From assembly GCA_022565395.1 (NCBI GenBank), contig JAIUMV010000008.1, positions 62,001 to 126,000 on the forward strand: a stretch of 64,000 bases of DNA, given 5' to 3'. Both the position numbers and the translations under genes were made by a program. Shown here piece by piece: positions 41,488-49,926 of this stretch (within the stretch, counting starts at the first letter, position 1; each line of letters starts with the position of its first letter). This DNA is from Marinobacter sp. (GTDB lineage Bacteria; Pseudomonadota; Gammaproteobacteria; Pseudomonadales; Oleiphilaceae). The notes beneath the pieces are model-generated. The model made no database searches and had not been told where the DNA came from. It saw only the letters and a list, made by a program, of their open reading frames with translations.

Positions 41488-42987
41488 ATGATAACTATGC
41501 GAGCTTGGCAGCGTTGGCTGATCGGCGTACTGCTGGGTTTCAGCCTCAGTGGTTGTACGACCTACACTTATCTCCCGGAACCCGGAGAGCCTCGCTCACT
41601 GCAGCTGTCCACCCTTAAAGTGAGTGAAGCGGGACGCATGCACGTGCCTGTTGCAGCCGCCCCCAACACTCGTACCCAGGTATGGGCCAGTCATGGCCGC
41701 ACGCTGCCAGTTGTTGATCGCATCGATGGCTGGGGAAATGAAGCACCCGACACTGCTCCCGCACAGCTGAATGTGCATGTAAAATCCGAGTGGCTACCAC
41801 GAACAAGAGACGCTGTATCCCTGATTTTCTTTTTTCTGACTGCCACGATAGTGCCCGCAACGGAAACCGACCAATTAACCATTACCACAGAGTTGCGTGC
41901 CGACGATGGTACCCTCTTGTTCCAAGAACAGTCACAGCGCCGATTACGCCGGAATACATCCTTCTATTCACCATTTCCATTCTTTATGGGCGGCCGTGAG
42001 CGCGCAGCGCAGAGCCGGGCCATTCACTCAGCGCTCAGCGAACATTACGCAGCACTGATGGAAGTTACCATCATGCAGCGTCTGGCTCACGATGAACTGC
42101 TTGCGGGGCCTAACGATGCCGAAGCCAAACGCGCCTGGCTAACCCGGCACCACGACAATATGTTCCGCCCTCAAGTACTACAGGAATTGGCAGCTTTGGC
42201 ACCCGCCGGCGCGGAAGCTGCCTGGCACCGAGATAACACGGCGTTCTTTTTTGATTATGCAGAGCTACTCGAAGGTGAACATCAGCTTTGGGGCATCGGT
42301 CCCCCCGGACGACGCCCTGCCGATGTGGTCAGACGCCTGGCACAAGGGGGCAACGAAGAGCAGATAGCTGAGCGGATCAGGACCGACGGCATTCCTTACC
42401 CGGAAATGGATGTGGATGCACAGCAATATTTGCTTGCGGGAGAGCTGTCACCCAAGGTGTTGGAGGCCATGCGCTTCAGCAGCAGCTCACAGCTTGCTGA
42501 ACGACGCCAGCGGGCTGAGCAGCGCCAGCAACAGGAGCAACAACACCAGATGGAAATCCGCAGAGCGGAGATTCAGACTCGGGTGATCGCTGGTAACGGT
42601 GGCAACTTCATGAGCCCCTACACCAGTGATGGTGTCACCGCAGAGTGGGTGAACCGCGCTATCAATGTGAGTATGGCCAGTACTACCGGGGCGGCGGTTG
42701 GTGGCGCGGCCGGAGCCTATGCGGGTAACCGGCTGCTGAGTAACGTGCCTTTTGGCGGGATGCTCGGCGGCATTGCCGGCGCCCAGGCAGGGCAAGCCGT
42801 TGGACGCGAGATGGCCATTGACCGGGATCTGGTGCGCCGCACCTCTGACCTGTCCTTTGTCACCCTGGAGGATATGGCTACATACCTGGTGCTGCACTAC
42901 GGCACAAATGCCAATTTCAGTCAGGTCATCAACGCAGCTGAAAAAATCTATCCGGGGCTGAGGCAAGCCGTTGCGAATGCACGGTAA
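41488..42987 (+). CDS. Lipoprotein with C-terminal glycine-zipper domain
   Basis: The 499-residue exported lipoprotein has a signal peptide and lipobox SLSGC (Cys23). The central part (about 30-345) is of unknown family. A Gln-rich coiled coil (about 335-360) leads to a C-terminal domain (about 369-495) with motifs GNGGNFMSP, TSDGVTAEWVNR, a glycine zipper (GAAVGGAAGAYAGNR) and RRTSDLSF. The same domain occurs in the PDZ-barrel protein at 47268-48653. Such glycine zippers often insert in or span membranes. The gene is preceded by AAGG and followed directly by the ankyrin lipoprotein. Base composition looks lower in GC than rnb by eye, not measured. Confidence 0.75.
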   Translation: MITMRAWQRWLIGVLLGFSLSGCTTYTYLPEPGEPRSLQLSTLKVSEAGRMHVPVAAAPNTRTQVWASHGRTLPVVDRIDGWGNEAPDTAPAQLNVHVKSEWLPRTRDAVSLIFFFLTATIVPATETDQLTITTELRADDGTLLFQEQSQRRLRRNTSFYSPFPFFMGGRERAAQSRAIHSALSEHYAALMEVTIMQRLAHDELLAGPNDAEAKRAWLTRHHDNMFRPQVLQELAALAPAGAEAAWHRDNTAFFFDYAELLEGEHQLWGIGPPGRRPADVVRRLAQGGNEEQIAERIRTDGIPYPEMDVDAQQYLLAGELSPKVLEAMRFSSSSQLAERRQRAEQRQQQEQQHQMEIRRAEIQTRVIAGNGGNFMSPYTSDGVTAEWVNRAINVSMASTTGAAVGGAAGAYAGNRLLSNVPFGGMLGGIAGAQAGQAVGREMAIDRDLVRRTSDLSFVTLEDMATYLVLHYGTNANFSQVINAAEKIYPGLRQAVANAR

Positions 42988-43004
42988 TGACAGAGGAAGA
43001 CATA

Positions 43005-43760
43005 ATGGAAAACCAACACACCATGCGTTGCACAGCACCGGCACAACGAAGGCTAAACGATACCGGACCGCTGGGCTCGATAGTAGATTGCTTGCGTGTC
43101 GGTTTTGTCATTCTGTCGATCGTAGTGTTCAGCACCTGGCTCAGTGGCTGCGCCAATAAAACGCCACCCCTAATGAAGGCCATTGATCGCGGTGATGATG
43201 CCGCGTTTTACACGCTACTGGCTAAGAATCCGGAGCATGCCGACAGGTTTAAGTATGGAGACTATGGCCGGTTTGAATGCCCGTTACACCTGGCAGCCTC
43301 TCTAGGACGCACGGAGTATGTGGCTGCGCTGCTGAACACAGGTGTGGACGCCAATCAACTGTGCTGGGCCCACCTAACACCGCTTCGTTACGCCGGGACA
43401 TACCCCTTCAAAAAAACGGAAAAAGACAATTATGCATTGATACGCTTACTCCTGGAATCAGGCGCCAGTACTGAATCCTTAGCTTTTGACTGGTTGAACA
43501 GTGAATTCTATTTGAAAACCGCCTGGGGTCGGACATTTACCCCCCGTGTCCTGGCGCTTTGGCTGGAGTATGGCGCTGACCTGCCCTTGCAAACGCTTCT
43601 GGTCTATGCGGCTCAAGTAGGCGATATTGAGATGGTGCAGGTAATGTTGGAGGCTGGCGCAGACCTAGATCAAAGGGATGAGCAAGGGCGCTCACTGTAT
43701 CGAATAGCCGCGGATAACAACCAACAACGCATGATGTTCTATCTCGCTCAATTTGACTAA
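43005..43760 (+). CDS. Ankyrin-repeat lipoprotein
   Basis: The protein has 251 residues from ATG 43005 (MENQHTMRC), chosen because GAGGAAG lies just upstream; ATG 42987 overlaps the previous stop (TAATG) and would also work. It has an unusually long n-region followed by a hydrophobic helix ending in a lipobox, WLSGC (about residue 49). Ankyrin-like repeats are visible: PLHLAASLGRTEYVAALLNTGVDANQ, YALIRLLLESGAS, and a C-terminal VYAAQVGDIEMVQVMLEAGADLDQRDEQGRS. Ankyrin lipoproteins bind other proteins in the periplasm. It is translationally close to the glycine-zipper lipoprotein, so the two probably work together. Confidence 0.78.
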   Translation: MENQHTMRCTAPAQRRLNDTGPLGSIVDCLRVGFVILSIVVFSTWLSGCANKTPPLMKAIDRGDDAAFYTLLAKNPEHADRFKYGDYGRFECPLHLAASLGRTEYVAALLNTGVDANQLCWAHLTPLRYAGTYPFKKTEKDNYALIRLLLESGASTESLAFDWLNSEFYLKTAWGRTFTPRVLALWLEYGADLPLQTLLVYAAQVGDIEMVQVMLEAGADLDQRDEQGRSLYRIAADNNQQRMMFYLAQFD

Positions 43761-43898
43761 AACTGCTGACAGTGCATCACGTTACTACTTCACTCTGTCA
43801 AGTGAGCGGCAGGTGTTGACAGAGCAGACCAAAGTAAGGTGTTGTACCTTCACCGGAAGTTGCCTCGGAACACAACAATTTACAAATTTTGACATTAC

Positions 43899-43923
43899 AA
43901 AGGCCCGCACAAGGGCCTTTTTT
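43899..43923 (+). terminator. Intrinsic terminator (copy B)
   Basis: The stem AAAGGCCC and GGGCCTTT (43899-43920) continues into a run of six T residues (43918-43923). The U-tract is better than in copy A. It lies about 140 bp after the ankyrin gene. Confidence 0.8.
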
Positions 43924-44014
43924 ATGTTCTTGCTTATCAATGCGTTATGCATATAGCGGGCGAGCCTGCCTACCCTCTCCCGGCACCCGTCCAAAAACGG
44001 GCCCGGGAACCCCC

Positions 44015-44043
44015 TTCTCATTGTCATCGTGCTCGACTATAAG
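44015..44043 (+). promoter_or_regulatory. Promoter of the lpoB operon (copy B)
   Basis: TTCTCA (44015-44020), 17 bp, TATAAG (44038-44043) are identical in sequence and spacing to copy A. The lpoB start codon is 45 bp after the -10 end, a normal leader length. Confidence 0.65.
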
Positions 44044-44087
44044 TTTGGTAAACACTGTTGCAAGCCCTATCAATCCCGGAGCCCGTC

Positions 44088-44723
44088 ATGTCTTTCAGAA
44101 CCACCTCTGCCGCGCTTGTTGCTGCCAGCCTGTTGGTTACCGGCTGTGCCACCAGCGAAATTGAAAATGTCCGGGGCACCCCGACGGTTTATCAGGACCC
44201 GTCTACGGCGGGCCGTGTTGGTGGTGTCGGCATCCAGTCCCAGGACATTATTGCGGTCACCGACCAGATGATGCGTGACCTGATGGCGACACCCGCCATT
44301 GTTGGCCGTAGCACACCGCCTCGCATTCTCATTTCCGATCAGTACATCCAGAATCAAAGCACGTCGGTCATCAATGTGCGTATGTTCAGCGACCGCCTGC
44401 GTACCGAGCTGAACCGGGCGGCCCAGGGCCGCGTGGTGTTTGTGGCCCGTGACTATGCCGCGGCCATCCAGCAGGAGCGGGACCTGAAGCGCGACGGTGT
44501 GGTGGATGGCGGCACCATCCGTGCCACCCAGGCCACCGCCGGGGTGGATTACCAGATGTTTGGTACCATCACCTCTGCTGACGCCATTGACCGCAGCACA
44601 GGCATGCAGGAACGCTATACCATGATCAACTTTGAGTTGGTGGATATGGAGCTGGGCACCATCGTCTGGGCTGACCTGTACGAGATGAGCAAGGCATCAC
44701 AAGACAATGTCCTGTATCGCTAA
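44088..44723 (+). CDS. lpoB: LpoB-type penicillin-binding protein activator lipoprotein
   Basis: The protein has 211 residues from ATG 44088 (MSFRTTSAALVA) with GGAG upstream. The lipobox VTGC gives a lipid-anchored Cys20. The rest matches LpoB: GVGIQSQDIIAVTDQMMRDLM, RILISDQYIQNQST, DRLRTELNRAAQGRVVFVAR, then a C-terminal MINFELVDMELGTIVW. In E. coli LpoB reaches from the outer membrane to activate PBP1b. The linker between the lipid anchor and the folded domain is short here compared with enteric LpoB. Neighbours YcfL and COG3014 are the same partners found next to lpoB in Vibrio and relatives. The start at 44058 would add ten residues with no better site. Confidence 0.88.
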   Translation: MSFRTTSAALVAASLLVTGCATSEIENVRGTPTVYQDPSTAGRVGGVGIQSQDIIAVTDQMMRDLMATPAIVGRSTPPRILISDQYIQNQSTSVINVRMFSDRLRTELNRAAQGRVVFVARDYAAAIQQERDLKRDGVVDGGTIRATQATAGVDYQMFGTITSADAIDRSTGMQERYTMINFELVDMELGTIVWADLYEMSKASQDNVLYR

Positions 44724-45933
44724 GACCTCCCTGCTGGCGGCGGGCATCGCCTGCGGCCTACTGCTGTCGGGTTGCGCCACTGGCCCCAAGGTCTATGACC
44801 GGGCCACCCTGACCGCCGCAGACAGCCAGTGGCTGGCCCAGCAACCAGCACAACTGCAGCCGGCATTCCGTAATCTATTGGAAGAGGGGCAGCGCAACCG
44901 GGTGCTGAACCTGATGGATATCGGCGTTACCGCCTACCGTGCCGGCTACCGCGAAGAAGCCCTGCGCGCTCTGGACACCGCCCGCCTGGAAATCGAAAGC
45001 GTGTTCGCCGACAACGAGGGCGCGCGCCGTGCCCGCAGCCTGTGGTACGAAGAAGCTGAGAAAGACTTCAAGGGCGAGCCCTACGAACGGGCCATGGTGT
45101 ACTTCTACCTCGGCCTTATTCATCTGGAAAATGGTGACTACGGCAACGCCCGCGCCAGCTTCCTCGGCGGCCTGTTACAGGACGCCTTTGCCGAAGAAGA
45201 ACAGTACAGCGCCGACTTTGCCCTGATGATCTACCTGGCAGGCTGGGCCGCCCTGCAGATGGGGGAGCCCCGCCTGGCTGCAGAGCATTTCGAGGAACTG
45301 AAAGTGTTCCGCCCCGACGCGCCCATTCCCGGCCCCGAGCATAACGCCCTGCTGGTGGTGGAAACCGGTAACTCGCCCCGTAAACTGGGCGACGGTGTGG
45401 GTCACTATCAGCTGGTGTTCCGCCGTGGCCGCGGCTTTAGTGATGTGGCCGCACAGTGGCGCAGTAACGGCGACTGGCAGAGCGTTTACCCGGTAGAGGA
45501 TATTTTCTTCCAGGCCTCCACCCGCGGCGGCCGCGCCATTGACCGTATCATTGCCGGGCAGGTGCAGTTTGCCGAGACCACCCGCAACCTCGGCAGCAAT
45601 CTCAGCGAGGTGTCCCAGAGCAGCATACTGGCGGGTGCGAGTATGTCTGCAGGCGGTGCCTTTGCTGGTGGCTTTGCCGCCATCAGCCTGGTCAGCGTCG
45701 CCGCCCAGGGCATGTCTGCCGCCACCAACACCCGGGTGGACACCCGCTACTGGAACTCACTGCCAGACACCGTACATGTCATGCCCGTTACTGCCCAACC
45801 GGGACAACAGGTGGACGTTCGCTTTCTCGATCGCAACGGCCAACCCATTCCCGGCATGACGGATACCACCACGTTTAATTTTGACCACCGTGGCCGGGGC
45901 CTGGCATTTGCCACCTCGCAGCGACCGAACTGA
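44707..45933 (+). CDS. COG3014 family lipoprotein
   Basis: The 408-residue lipoprotein has lipobox LLSGC (Cys23). It begins 17 bp inside the end of lpoB, so expression is coupled. TPR-like helical pairs (VLNLMDIGVTAYRAGYREEALRALDTARLEIE; MVYFYLGLIHLENGDYGNARASF; GWAALQMGEPRLAAEHFEEL) fill residues about 60-210. A Gly/Ala/Ser-rich hydrophobic stretch (ILAGASMSAGGAFAGGFAAISLVSVAAQG) is at about 310-340, and a beta-rich tail follows. The family is known only as conserved beside lpoB and ycfL; a scaffold role in the outer-membrane lipoprotein complex is inferred. Confidence 0.85.
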   Translation: MSCIAKTSLLAAGIACGLLLSGCATGPKVYDRATLTAADSQWLAQQPAQLQPAFRNLLEEGQRNRVLNLMDIGVTAYRAGYREEALRALDTARLEIESVFADNEGARRARSLWYEEAEKDFKGEPYERAMVYFYLGLIHLENGDYGNARASFLGGLLQDAFAEEEQYSADFALMIYLAGWAALQMGEPRLAAEHFEELKVFRPDAPIPGPEHNALLVVETGNSPRKLGDGVGHYQLVFRRGRGFSDVAAQWRSNGDWQSVYPVEDIFFQASTRGGRAIDRIIAGQVQFAETTRNLGSNLSEVSQSSILAGASMSAGGAFAGGFAAISLVSVAAQGMSAATNTRVDTRYWNSLPDTVHVMPVTAQPGQQVDVRFLDRNGQPIPGMTDTTTFNFDHRGRGLAFATSQRPN

Positions 45934-45947
45934 ACAAGGAGAGCCCC

Positions 45948-46403
45948 ATGAACAAGATCGCCCTTTCACTGGCCCTGTGCGCCAGCCTGCTGATGACTGC
46001 TGGCTGCACCAGCATGTCCGCCAGCGACACCCGACTGGATGGCCGCACGGCGCCCGTCGAGTTCAACTCGGTGGTTTTCACTGACTACACCCTGCAACGC
46101 AGTTGGAGTGAGGGACTGTTTGGTGAAGGCCGTCGCTTCCGCTTGTCTACTGAAAACCACGGTATGCGCCGCTCCCCTACCAACACCTCAGAAGTGTTCG
46201 TGGTACTGCGTAACCACACCGATTTTGACATTGTAGTGGAGGTCCAGACCCAGTTCTTTGATACGGACGGCGTACCCACCGATGCTCGCCCGACCTGGCA
46301 GCGCTCTACCGTGCCCGCCAATGGCCTGCACACCTACCGTCAGCTGTCCATCACCACCAACCCGCTGCAGTACCGGGTTGAAGTCCGGGAAATGCGCCGA
46401 TGA
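45948..46403 (+). CDS. ycfL: YcfL-like lipoprotein (DUF1425)
   Basis: The 151-residue lipoprotein has lipobox MTAGC (Cys20) and a compact beta-sandwich-like domain. The visible motifs RRSPTNTSEVFVVLRNHTDFDIVVEVQTQFFD and PTWQRSTVPANGLHTYRQLSI agree with YcfL, encoded immediately beside lpoB in E. coli. Its molecular role is unknown; position implies work with LpoB. It follows COG3014 by 14 bp with a GGAG site and overlaps the next gene by 4 bp. Confidence 0.88.
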   Translation: MNKIALSLALCASLLMTAGCTSMSASDTRLDGRTAPVEFNSVVFTDYTLQRSWSEGLFGEGRRFRLSTENHGMRRSPTNTSEVFVVLRNHTDFDIVVEVQTQFFDTDGVPTDARPTWQRSTVPANGLHTYRQLSITTNPLQYRVEVREMRR

Positions 46404-47206
46404 ACCGCCGCCCATTGCTGTTGGCCGCCCTGCTGGCCGCCAGCCCCGTCTGGGCCGCGGGTGATCATCCAGCCATGCCCATGATGGCAGAGCCTAACCG
46501 CCCGCTGTCCGCCGATGATCTGGCGGCACAGGACAAGCAGCCCCTGCGCACCCGCAGCCGGGACGACATACTGCGGGACTTCCAGGCCCGCACTGCCACC
46601 CCGCCCCGCATGGCCGTATTCTGGAACCGCCAGTTCGGTGACCAGGTCAGCGACTGGGTCAGTAGCTACCGGGAAACCGCCTCAGCCCAGGGCCGGATTC
46701 AAGGTCAGGTGCCGGAAGGCGCCGTTAATCTGGAAGCCAGCGGCCGCGCCACCGTACAGGCGGAAACCCGTGGCCGCAGTGCAGCCGTGCGTGAACCGGT
46801 AGTGGAACTGCAATCCGGCTTTATCCAGCAGCTTGCCGATGCCGGCGTGACGGTCATTGATCGGGCCGCCATGATGCGCATCACCGACAACCAGCTGGAA
46901 GACGGCCAGTTCGAGCGTTTGTCCCCTGACCAGGCGCGGCTGGAAATGCGCGCCCTGGCTGCCCATGCCGACTTGCTGGTGGAACTGCAACAGCCCCGGG
47001 CTGACCACTTCGTACTGCGGGTCATTGATGTCAACACCGGTGCCATCCGCACCGTGATGACCAGCAACGGTATTCCGCCGCAACAGGACCAGCGGCGCCA
47101 GTGGCAGACCACCGACCGTGGCTTCGCCCGTTATGAACCCGCAGCGGCGCCGGAGGAAACCGGCCAGGAACTCGCCCTGCAACTCCTGGAACGGATCACC
47201 AGATAA
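46400..47206 (+). CDS. Exported protein of the lpoB operon, unknown family
   Basis: The 268-residue protein has a signal peptide of about 20 residues (LLLAALLAASPVWAAG). The start overlaps ycfL by 4 bp (ATGA). The C-terminal two thirds show an alpha/beta pattern, with FIQQLADAGVTVIDRAAMMRI, ALAAHADLLVELQQPR and VIDVNTGAIRTVMTS, that recalls the CsgG/LpoB-type periplasmic fold (a strand for binding loss-of-substrate sensing is not inferred). I cannot place it in a named family. It is soluble in the periplasm, not lipidated. It belongs to the lpoB operon and precedes the PDZ-barrel gene by 61 bp. Confidence 0.7.
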   Translation: MNRRPLLLAALLAASPVWAAGDHPAMPMMAEPNRPLSADDLAAQDKQPLRTRSRDDILRDFQARTATPPRMAVFWNRQFGDQVSDWVSSYRETASAQGRIQGQVPEGAVNLEASGRATVQAETRGRSAAVREPVVELQSGFIQQLADAGVTVIDRAAMMRITDNQLEDGQFERLSPDQARLEMRALAAHADLLVELQQPRADHFVLRVIDVNTGAIRTVMTSNGIPPQQDQRRQWQTTDRGFARYEPAAAPEETGQELALQLLERITR

Positions 47207-47267
47207 AAATGAAGAAGGTGGCCAGACCGCCTTCTAACTAGCGCTCTGTTCTTTGAGGAAATGCCCC

Positions 47268-48653
47268 ATGTCTTTCCGTTTTCGGCTACGCATCGCGTTG
47301 CTGGTTGTGGTTACCACCGCCCTGAGCTGGTCCGCCACCCTGCACGCCAATGATATCCGCCCCATTGAAGGCAACACTGGCCAGTACATGAGCCCCATCA
47401 CCAGCGATGGTGTGGTGGCGGAATGGGTCAACCGCTCCATTAATGCCAATATGGGTGCCACGGCGGGCTCCGCCGTGGGTGCCTATGCCGGCAGCCGCGC
47501 CATGAGCAGCATCCCGTTTGTCGGCGGCATGATCGGTAGTCAAGTCGGCCAAAGCGCAGGCCGGGCCGCAGCCCTCCAGGCTGCCGGGGGTGAAGCGCTG
47601 ATTCGCTCCACCTCGGACCTGTCCTTCAACTCGCTCAACACCATGGCCCAGTGGCTAGCTATCAATCACAGCAGCCGCGCTGATTTTGCCGACATACTGA
47701 AAGCGACCCAGGCGGTATATCCCGAGCTGGCCAGTATCTACCCCGCCGCCGCAGCCCAAGCCCAGGCCCGGGAACAGCAACGCCTGACCGCCGGCCGGGT
47801 GGGCTTTACCCTCGACAGCAGTGGCGGTGCGATACGTATCAACGCCATCGCACCCGACTCTCCCAACCGCAATATCGGAGTAGAACCAGGTGATGTGCTG
47901 ATCAGCGTTGATGGCCAATTTATTCAGGGCGCCACCATTGCCCAGGTATCGCAGCGCCTGCGTGGCCCCGTTGACACCACGGTGGATATCGCCGTAGTGC
48001 GGGAAGGGGAGCAGGAGCTGCGCAGCTACACCCTGACCCGGGCAGTGATTGCAGATCCGGTGCCCCCGCCCACCCAACAGACCTTCGCACCTGCAGCACA
48101 GCCAAGCCAACCCGTAGCGCGCGTGCCCTACACAGATCGGGAGTTCTATGGCAGCTTGTTCCTGGCTGTTACCAGCGATGAAATTGACGGCGTAGGCTTG
48201 GGCGGTGACCTTGGCTATTTTGGCGTCAGCCCCGGTGGCTTTGATGGCTACGTCAAAGGCGAGTTGGTGTACACCGACGACGGCTTTGATATCGAATACT
48301 TCGCCTTGCGCATGGATCTTGGTGCCACCTACAGCATCGATAATGCCTGGTCGTTCTACGGCGCACTGATTCTCAGCGCAGCGGACGTTGAGAATGACGA
48401 CTTCTCAGAGGACTACACCGGTTTCGGCTATCGTCTGGGGACCCGCTATGCGGTCAAGTCATCGAACCTGTTTATCGACCTGAGCTACCAGAGCACGCGC
48501 CTGGAAGGCACCTTTGAGGACAAAATCACTCAGTCAGGCCTGCGGTTCGAGTTAGAGCTGGGTATTACCGAAAGCGTTGGCCTGCTTATGAGCTACGAAG
48601 ACCTCGACTTCGGCAATGCCATACTCATAGGCGTCCGCTTCCGCGGCCACTGA
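47268..48653 (+). CDS. Glycine-zipper, PDZ and outer-membrane beta-barrel protein
   Basis: The protein has 461 residues from ATG 47268 (MSFRFRLRIALL), with GAGGAA upstream; an in-frame TTG at 47253 is rejected. A signal peptide (about 1-27) is followed by a glycine-zipper domain (about 35-150: GNTGQYMSP, TSDGVVAEWVNR, GSAVGAYAGSR, IRSTSDLSF) homologous to the C-terminus of the lipoprotein at 41488. A PDZ domain (about 165-245: GFTLDSSGG, PGDVLISVDG, VSQRLRG) and a C-terminal barrel of about eight strands (about 290-461), ending in an aromatic-poor FRGH, complete it. It likely sits in the outer membrane with the PDZ domain in the periplasm. Confidence 0.78.
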   Translation: MSFRFRLRIALLVVVTTALSWSATLHANDIRPIEGNTGQYMSPITSDGVVAEWVNRSINANMGATAGSAVGAYAGSRAMSSIPFVGGMIGSQVGQSAGRAAALQAAGGEALIRSTSDLSFNSLNTMAQWLAINHSSRADFADILKATQAVYPELASIYPAAAAQAQAREQQRLTAGRVGFTLDSSGGAIRINAIAPDSPNRNIGVEPGDVLISVDGQFIQGATIAQVSQRLRGPVDTTVDIAVVREGEQELRSYTLTRAVIADPVPPPTQQTFAPAAQPSQPVARVPYTDREFYGSLFLAVTSDEIDGVGLGGDLGYFGVSPGGFDGYVKGELVYTDDGFDIEYFALRMDLGATYSIDNAWSFYGALILSAADVENDDFSEDYTGFGYRLGTRYAVKSSNLFIDLSYQSTRLEGTFEDKITQSGLRFELELGITESVGLLMSYEDLDFGNAILIGVRFRGH

Positions 48654-48774: not shown

Positions 48775-49926
48775 ATGGTTCGCCTTCTGCAATCTGCGGT
48801 TTCCCAGGGCAAGGCCCTGTCCGACCGCGCCGCCATCATGGCCAACAATGCCTACGACCGTGTCTTCCGCGCAGCCAGCCTGGTGCAGGCCGGGCAAACA
48901 CCCTTCGACGTCCTGATGGACGATGGTTTGGTCACCCTGCGCTACTACCCGCCCCTGCAGGACAGTGAGATTGAGCTGGACGATAGGGTGGTGCCGGTGG
49001 CGCGGGAGAACTTCCGCACACCCGTAGTGATTGTGCCGCCCCTGGCCATCAATATGCTGATCTATGACCTCTTCCCCAACCGCAGCCTGGTGAAATACCT
49101 GCGCGCCCGGGGCTTTCCAGTCTATCTGGTGGACTGGGGCAAGCCCACCCGCCGGCACAACCACTACAACCTCCACACCTACGTGGCAGAGCTGCTGCCC
49201 CTGTATCTGGACCGGGTACGCGCCCACAGCGGTGAGCAGCAGTTGTCCTTGCATGGCTGGAGCCTGGGGGGCATGTTTACCATGTTCTACACCGCCCTGA
49301 GTAAAGACCCCGATATTCGCAATGTCATGATTCTGGGGTCACCCGTGGATAGCCACGCCTCCGGCGTACTCGGCATGGTCAACCGCTATCTGGGTGAAGT
49401 GGCTCAGCAGGTGCGGGACAAAACCGGCTTTCGCCTGCACAGCCTGAAACCGGACCTGTTCTATACCCCCGGCTGGGCCAACACCATCGGCTTCAAACTC
49501 ACCAACCCCATCGGCAGCATCAAAGGCTACTGGGAACTGGTAGCCAACCTGAGTGATCGGGAATTTGTCACCAACCACGCCACCACCGCAGCGTTTCTGG
49601 ATCGTATGGTGGCCTACCCCGGCGGTGTGATTCAGGACACCATCGTGCGGGTGTGGATGGACAACCAGATGGCCCGCGGCGAGATCCAGATTGGCGATGA
49701 CATCGCCAGGCTGGAAAACATCCGGGCCAACGTACTGGCCATCGCCGGACGTCATGACACCATGGTCACCCCCAAAGCGGCCAAGTCCCTGCTGGATCAG
49801 GTCTCCTCCACTGACAAGACCTTCAAGGTGGTGCCCGGTGGCCATATGGGTATTCTCGCGGGCAGCAAGGCTCCTCAGGCCAGTTGGGTGGAATTGGCCG
49901 ACTGGCTGGCAGAAAGGTCTGATTAA
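48775..49926 (+). CDS. PhaC-like alpha/beta hydrolase with Ser nucleophile
   Basis: The 383-residue protein resembles the polyhydroxyalkanoate synthase family over most of its length (VVIVPPLAINMLIYDLFPNRSLVKYLRARGFPVYLVDWGKP, and the C-terminal Asp/His region NVLAIAGRHDTMVTP...GGHMGIL). The nucleophile elbow is GWSLGG, with Ser where true PHA synthases have Cys (GxCxG). It is thus more likely an esterase or acyl transferase than a polymer synthase. No phaA or phaB is nearby. It lies between the lpoB operon and a GMC oxidoreductase, with a 121-bp gap before it. Confidence 0.85.
   Translation: MVRLLQSAVSQGKALSDRAAIMANNAYDRVFRAASLVQAGQTPFDVLMDDGLVTLRYYPPLQDSEIELDDRVVPVARENFRTPVVIVPPLAINMLIYDLFPNRSLVKYLRARGFPVYLVDWGKPTRRHNHYNLHTYVAELLPLYLDRVRAHSGEQQLSLHGWSLGGMFTMFYTALSKDPDIRNVMILGSPVDSHASGVLGMVNRYLGEVAQQVRDKTGFRLHSLKPDLFYTPGWANTIGFKLTNPIGSIKGYWELVANLSDREFVTNHATTAAFLDRMVAYPGGVIQDTIVRVWMDNQMARGEIQIGDDIARLENIRANVLAIAGRHDTMVTPKAAKSLLDQVSSTDKTFKVVPGGHMGILAGSKAPQASWVELADWLAERSD

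Follow-up and report, generated by a model that had tools for sequence, protein, structure and literature searches.

According to a review (PMC13067283), SlyB, a lipoprotein of Escherichia coli, forms ring-shaped complexes, and these may encapsulate outer-membrane proteins; it is mentioned again in PMC13082787. TraT is described in PMC11733297 as an outer-membrane decamer shaped as a helical barrel. With these systems we compared a glycine-zipper domain encoded twice on a stretch of 64,000 nucleotides from Marinobacter sp. (assembly GCA_022565395.1, contig JAIUMV010000008.1, positions 62,001 to 126,000), which as a whole is called the window. The two carrier proteins, P0001 and P0002, are encoded on either side of a gene cluster for an LpoB-like lipoprotein, a tetratricopeptide repeat (TPR) lipoprotein, a YcfL-like lipoprotein and the exported protein P268. 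Judged by sequence comparison, the domain is homologous in both proteins and unnamed in the libraries searched. It mostly accompanies this cluster, and the cluster can do without it. We tentatively propose, at not quite an even chance, that the domain acts as an outer-membrane assembly module bringing passengers to the cluster proteins, a complex of the LpoB and TPR lipoproteins.

The initial annotation had assigned the two genes to 41488-42987 and 47268-48653 and had claimed that their products share an unrecognised domain, with a series of short motifs in the same order. Both genes were located there, and their parts are as follows (coordinates within the window).
41488..42987, + strand: P0001, a 499-aa lipoprotein with an LSGC lipobox at residues 20-23 and the shared domain at its C-terminus
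42583..42984, + strand: shared domain, copy 1 (P0001 residues 366-499), placed by alignment
42688..42816, + strand: glycine zipper of copy 1, a GxxxG ladder built as helix, PF turn and helix
47268..48653, + strand: P0002, 461 aa, with a signal-peptide-like start, the shared domain, a PDZ domain and an outer-membrane barrel
47352..47762, + strand: shared domain, copy 2 (the stretch folded by AlphaFold)
47454..47573, + strand: glycine zipper of copy 2, with G35/39/43 and G58/62/66/70 in the numbering of family alignment A2
47787..48002, + strand: PDZ domain of P0002, PF17820 34.8 bits and PF00595 27.8 bits, both over cut-off
48120..48650, + strand: beta-barrel region of P0002, OMP_b-brl 30.9 bits over a cut-off of 28.7, residues 307-417

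BLASTP aligned residues 365-491 of P0001 with residues 31-154 of P0002 at E 1e-30, with 62 of 128 positions identical and 87 positive. The local alignment score was 305; 1000 full shuffles reached at most 71, and 1000 shuffles confined to 10-residue blocks at most 109. The block before the zipper alone scored 108 and the block after it 95. Since the flanking blocks score by themselves and the shuffles remain far below the real score, the similarity reflects homology and not glycine-rich composition. The domain comprises about 130 residues (366-499 in P0001, about 29-160 in P0002), the listed motifs occur in both proteins in identical order, and neither copy exceeded any Pfam or NCBIfam cut-off. 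The claim of a common, unrecognised domain thus holds; its description as a domain of two proteins proved too narrow, as the domain is a mobile module that occurs fused to many different partners.

Alignment A2 contains 60 distinct copies of the domain from Marinobacter, Alcanivorax, Idiomarina, sphingomonads, Thermodesulfobacteriota and others. Ten columns were invariant (G10, P15, D19, E24, W25, D89, S91, F92, Y123 and P124), all of them outside the glycine zipper. Every copy has between 4 and 13 GxxxG/A steps, and the zipper of P0002 forms an exact four-residue ladder. The signature N-x-G, P-x-TSD-x-V-x-AEWV, zipper, SDxSF and YP is present in this one order in both window copies. When models of the N-flank and the C-flank were run separately, they met in 92 of the 98 open frames matching either, and the six open frames with one flank only are halves of split or cut genes. 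An AlphaFold model of the P0002 domain reached a mean predicted local distance difference test score (pLDDT) of 82.1 and a predicted template modelling score (pTM) of 0.75, with helices at residues 24-38 and 61-77 and a confident C-terminal helical part. For this fold no Foldseek match was obtained at E ≤ 0.001, the best VIA row was a weak match (Z 3.4, root-mean-square deviation (rmsd) 3.6, 54 aligned), and a sequence comparison with the PDB returned three unconvincing chains (E 0.25-0.69). The whole-protein model of P0001 (mean pLDDT 71.6, pTM 0.50) gave a SecB-like row (Z 6.0, rmsd 4.5, 107 aligned) and LptE- and CsgG-like rows (Z 4-5.4), all of them roughly in the N-terminal half and too weak for use.

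Domain-bearing loci were collected by a scan of one genome per species; the family alignment was needed as query, and a contig scan with the P0001 domain alone found nothing. The 53 loci obtained include Marinobacter, Alcanivorax, Idiomarina, Pseudidiomarina, Alteromonas, Novosphingobium, Sphingobium, Desulfobacteraceae, Dadabacteria and a metagenome-assembled genome (MAG) of Opitutus, and those beyond Pseudomonadota are mostly MAGs. Two loci kept among the 53 loci and 60 copies are possible binning or contamination errors, namely L072, a Rhodopirellula MAG that falls inside a Marinobacter group, and L041, a Caulobacter copy next to those of sphingomonads. When 390 genomes of the order were searched with the profile, 11 had strong copies (E < 1e-40) and were counted; 23 genomes passed E 1e-4, the other 12 at E 1e-5 to 9e-5 and matching mainly zipper columns. 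The domain was present in two of 369 genomes of the class, the window's own and G456, where domain, LpoB, TPR and P268 genes stand in a row, and in two of 58 relatives. A third copy in the window's own genome (C20:7062-7448, E 8.4e-24) ends a 448-residue lipoprotein (L006:6123-7469); two weak places (E 0.037 and 2.4) were excluded. By eye, the L006 lipoprotein shows MORN-like repeats, and L088 and L089 are its close relatives within Marinobacter. On pHP-187, a 187-kb plasmid of Marinobacter adhaerens typed as non-mobilizable, the gene of a domain-bearing protein has an LpoB-like gene behind it (L133:5137-7169). A frame change breaks an Alloalcanivorax-type domain gene into two open frames (L036:1492-2378, L090:2726-3612); intact versions occur in sister genomes (L012, L081).

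The architectures were counted over 69 distinct proteins (L038-L090, the window and L006). The domain either makes up a small exported protein by itself or is fused to a large lipoprotein, to PDZ, to ankyrin repeats, or to both of the latter. More than 90 residues precede it and at most 60 follow it in 45 of the 69 proteins; 21 have at most 90 residues ahead and at most 60 behind, and three have longer tails of 302 (P0002), 98 and 68 residues. Of these tails that of P0002 was scanned, and it holds the PDZ and barrel matches. A lipobox-like motif precedes the domain in 60 of 69 proteins. Among the nine misses, L055 and L073 reflect the limits of the motif, the start of L086 is unsure, and no lipobox was found in P0002, L041, L044, L050, L058 and L089. 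P0002 has no cysteine ahead of the domain and hence no lipobox.

PDZ domains over the Pfam cut-off are fused to the domain in L011, L052 and L016, and one in L055 remained below it (19.8 of 23.2 bits). Both orders occur, domain-PDZ in P0002 and PDZ-domain in L011, L052 and L016. Ankyrin repeats over cut-off were found together with PDZ in L046:8858 and alone in two more proteins of L046 and two of L059; such direct ankyrin fusions are seen in some relatives from Alcanivorax and Marinobacter, and in the window a separate ankyrin gene adjoins P0001. The N-terminal part of P0001 (about 340 aa, termed LipoN) had no Pfam match, and 20 rows of P0001-type N-termini could be aligned. In our reading, L006, L088 and L089 have a MORN-like N-terminus, which is without a Pfam match over cut-off, and L007 a PEGA-like one. 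The P0002 barrel matched at E ≤ 0.001 only in its own genome and in none of the other 96 of the 97 genomes searched, and a PDB match was absent.

Co-occurrence with lpoB, which the initial annotation had named as support for its proposal, was strong. Among the 53 loci, 46 have an LpoB-like gene, 46 a TPR gene, 44 YcfL and 41 P268; in 37 of the 46 LpoB-bearing loci, the gene immediately upstream of lpoB carries the domain. At least two domain-bearing genes were found in 12 of 53 loci, 11 of which have an LpoB-like gene. Domain and TPR genes were searched in the same draw of 390 order genomes, as far as the genome handles show; the TPR gene occurred in 12 and the domain in 11, all 11 being common to both, and in these the two genes share a contig and, by coordinates, are no more than about 5 kb apart. 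The order's exception, G060, has LpoB, YcfL, P268 and TPR genes, and the domain was not found there. The slot just after P268 is taken by a domain gene whose product starts with a PDZ or PDZ-like part in Marinobacter L052, L070, L071 and L080, and likewise in loci of the Alcanivorax type, among them L055, L061, L076, L081 and L082; P0002 holds the same slot with domain and PDZ in reversed order. In Alcanivorax L057, L062, L064 and L065 the PDZ or PDZ-like domain gene comes after LpoB instead. The genes between the two carriers in the window are as follows.
42987..43760, + strand: ankyrin-repeat protein with a lipobox-like LSGC
43899..43920, + strand: terminator-like hairpin with a T run behind it, downstream of the ankyrin gene and ahead of lpoB
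44058..44723, + strand: LpoB-like lipoprotein, PF13036 75.8 bits over a cut-off of 22.3
44707..45933, + strand: TPR lipoprotein
45948..46403, + strand: YcfL-like lipoprotein, DUF1425 at 24.3 bits and so short of the cut-off (28.3)
46400..47206, + strand: P268, a 268-aa exported protein that recurs in the cluster and for which no Pfam family exceeded its cut-off

The TPR lipoprotein is the one we take to be COG3014. In our reading the likelier start of the LpoB-like gene is the ATG at 44088, and its product scored 59 bits with the equivalog model TIGR02722, under the cut-off of 110.55. A relationship of P268 to LpoB was not detected (hhalign probability 2.3), and its reading as a second LpoB-like protein is not supported. 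The hairpin at 43899-43920 suggests that P0001-ankyrin and lpoB-P0002 are perhaps two transcription units; terminator-like sites in the region occur at nearly chance rate (seven found, 5.9 expected from shuffles). A gene for a PhaC-like alpha/beta hydrolase (48775-49926) comes after the cluster, as it does in many Marinobacter loci. In the G060 locus (L108:3945-6843), the TPR gene lies between genes for a 189-aa exported, helix-rich-looking protein, ahead of it, and for a 244-aa barrel-like protein, behind it, both noted by eye.

The proposed assembly module would work as follows. Two short helices would form a glycine-zipper hairpin that packs on further copies of the same hairpin, either within the outer membrane or at its surface; SlyB is a precedent for ring formation by such an outer-membrane lipoprotein (PMC13067283). 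The invariant flanks (G-x4-P-x3-D-x4-E-W before the zipper, D-x-S-F and Y-P after it) may present a fixed, partner-specific face. The ancestral form was probably a small free exported protein, usually lipidated and made beside LpoB and the TPR lipoprotein; copying of the domain in marine gammaproteobacteria would then have grafted it onto other extracytoplasmic parts, and the grafted passengers would join a common LpoB/TPR/YcfL/P268 outer-membrane complex. In the window, P0001 would supply a lipid-anchored module and P0002 a PDZ domain with its own barrel anchor, both meeting through the domain. Invariant residues outside the zipper, repeated fusion at either end, linkage to the cluster and several carriers per locus together favor docking or assembly over a plain membrane anchor.

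Several observations weigh against this proposal. The searches of 390 genomes scored only a limited number of first-look candidates in each genome, and the 11 domain-bearing genomes of the order fall in three families only and are therefore not independent; the chance figure for the overlap, 1.7e-20, assumes independent genomes, which they are not. An LpoB gene is missing from seven of the 53 loci, for which the end of the contig is a plausible reason in L085 and L090. In G060, G863, G1035 and G1046 the cluster is present and no domain was detected, and no lpoB-cluster gene was matched within the 16 kb surrounding the third copy in L006. Among 378 genomes of the phylum, the TPR gene was present in five, namely the window's own genome and four in which the domain was not found; for one of these four, G926, the absence is uninformative, as the genome is 65% complete and only about 340 bases of the cluster contig remain past the lpoB frame. 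The hairpin itself is not obvious as a membrane element given the low hydropathy of the zipper, with 19-residue maxima of 0.73 in P0002 and 0.99 in P0001, 1.51 in SlyB and a median of 0.96 over the 60 copies, of which three exceed 1.6. The AlphaFold single-chain model is unsure in the zipper (pLDDT <50 for residues 38-62). Finally, the standalone sphingomonad and Caulobacter copies (L041, L044, L050 and L058) have neither lipobox nor barrel, and thus no anchor is seen there.

A doubtful alternative is that the domain, like SlyB or TraT, forms homo-oligomers only, as a ring around barrels or lipids, and that proximity to lpoB reflects shared regulation and not a complex. Its zipper hairpin with the GxxxG ladder agrees with this, as do the rings of SlyB that may enclose outer-membrane proteins (PMC13067283), the TraT barrel (PMC11733297), a weak, zipper-confined profile match to SlyB (probability 45) and copies that lie away from the cluster. 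However, the invariant residues are located outside the zipper, linkage to one cluster is tight both in Pseudomonadota and in MAGs of other phyla, and a simple homo-ring would not need the several domain proteins found in 12 of 53 loci.

Local duplication without contact between the products, with the domain stabilizing or localizing each carrier separately, appears improbable. Tandem duplication does occur in some loci, with three ankyrin-type copies in L046 and two LipoN copies in L073. However, fusions recur at both ends of the domain, and an unrooted tree of the 60 copies separates 19 from 41 with support 98/90. The smaller group contains the P0002 copy and 18 mostly standalone copies from several phyla; the larger consists mostly of C-terminal fusions in Marinobacter and Alcanivorax and includes the P0001 copy. 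Branches are long, and the standalone copy L051:13772 is placed in the fusion group. As the window copies lie on opposite sides of the split, they appear to be old, different types retained together and not a recent pair; descent of P0002 from P0001 by recent copying is accordingly not favored.

A role in the control of peptidoglycan synthesis, with domain proteins partnering LpoB to activate PBP1b, is very improbable and the link to PBP1b weak: the cluster gene exceeds the Pfam cut-off for LpoB and UB2H, the LpoB docking site of PBP1b, is over cut-off in the window's own genome, but the LpoB-like protein falls short of the NCBIfam equivalog threshold (59 of 110.55 bits) and UB2H occurs in 38 of 38 relatives (37 over cut-off) whereas the domain occurs in two of 58 relatives and the TPR gene in 12 of 390 order genomes, so the target does not track the cluster.

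Returning to the assembly module, a broader version would make the domain a general docking tag of diderm envelopes that plugs any carrier, at either end, into one LpoB/TPR outer-membrane machine. We consider this unlikely; if true, bacteria would re-equip the machine with PDZ, ankyrin, barrel and other heads in the manner of dockerins in cellulosomes, the fusions would list what the machine handles, and any copy could reveal the machine. The analysis provides a signature and a testable role for the domain, and the domain links conserved outer-membrane lipoprotein genes of obscure purpose. A literature search, with most subscription journals outside its reach, found the domain described in none of the listed titles or abstract openings and no paper pairing LpoB with COG3014.

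Comparison with known families did not identify the domain, as the matches from Pfam, NCBIfam and PHROGs were all weak or below threshold, and most of them lay at the zipper. For PF05433 (Rick_17kDa_Anti, cut-off 24.2 bits), P0001 reached 19.1 and the P0002 domain 13.1 bits, and both missed the threshold. The 60 copies were judged by E, bit scores being compared with cut-offs for the window copies only; at E ≤ 0.1, 30 matched PF13488 (best 2.7e-5), 29 PF05433 (best 5.6e-5), 17 PF13441 and 12 Romo1 (best 2.4e-4). The Romo1 match of P0002 (E 0.04) is at chance level, and such matches are taken as a glycine-zipper-type resemblance. NCBIfam returned two glycine-zipper/OmpA-type models for P0001, both far under threshold, and the strongest PHROGs match was phrog_15869 (function unassigned; E 3e-6) at residues 33-81 of the P0001 copy.

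The domain resembles PF05433 and PF13488 (Gly-zipper_Omp) in its two-helix GxxxG ladder within exported, mostly lipidated proteins, but those matches to these families for which a range was given span about 16-48 residues at the zipper, and the conserved flanks of the domain lie outside them. With TraT, a lipid-anchored outer-membrane oligomer with amphipathic helices according to PMC11733297, the likeness is a hint only: L007 scored 12.8 of 31 bits with PF05818, and the TraT row of the P0001 model (Z 4.6, rmsd 7.3, 111 aligned) spans residues 13-188 and not the shared domain. SlyB is likewise a lipoprotein with a glycine zipper, as read from its sequence; the weak hhalign match covers 29 columns of the zipper only, and the invariant flank motifs are not seen in the SlyB sequence. 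The LpoB, TPR and YcfL genes accompany the domain, which is an addition to their cluster, as clusters without a detected domain exist.

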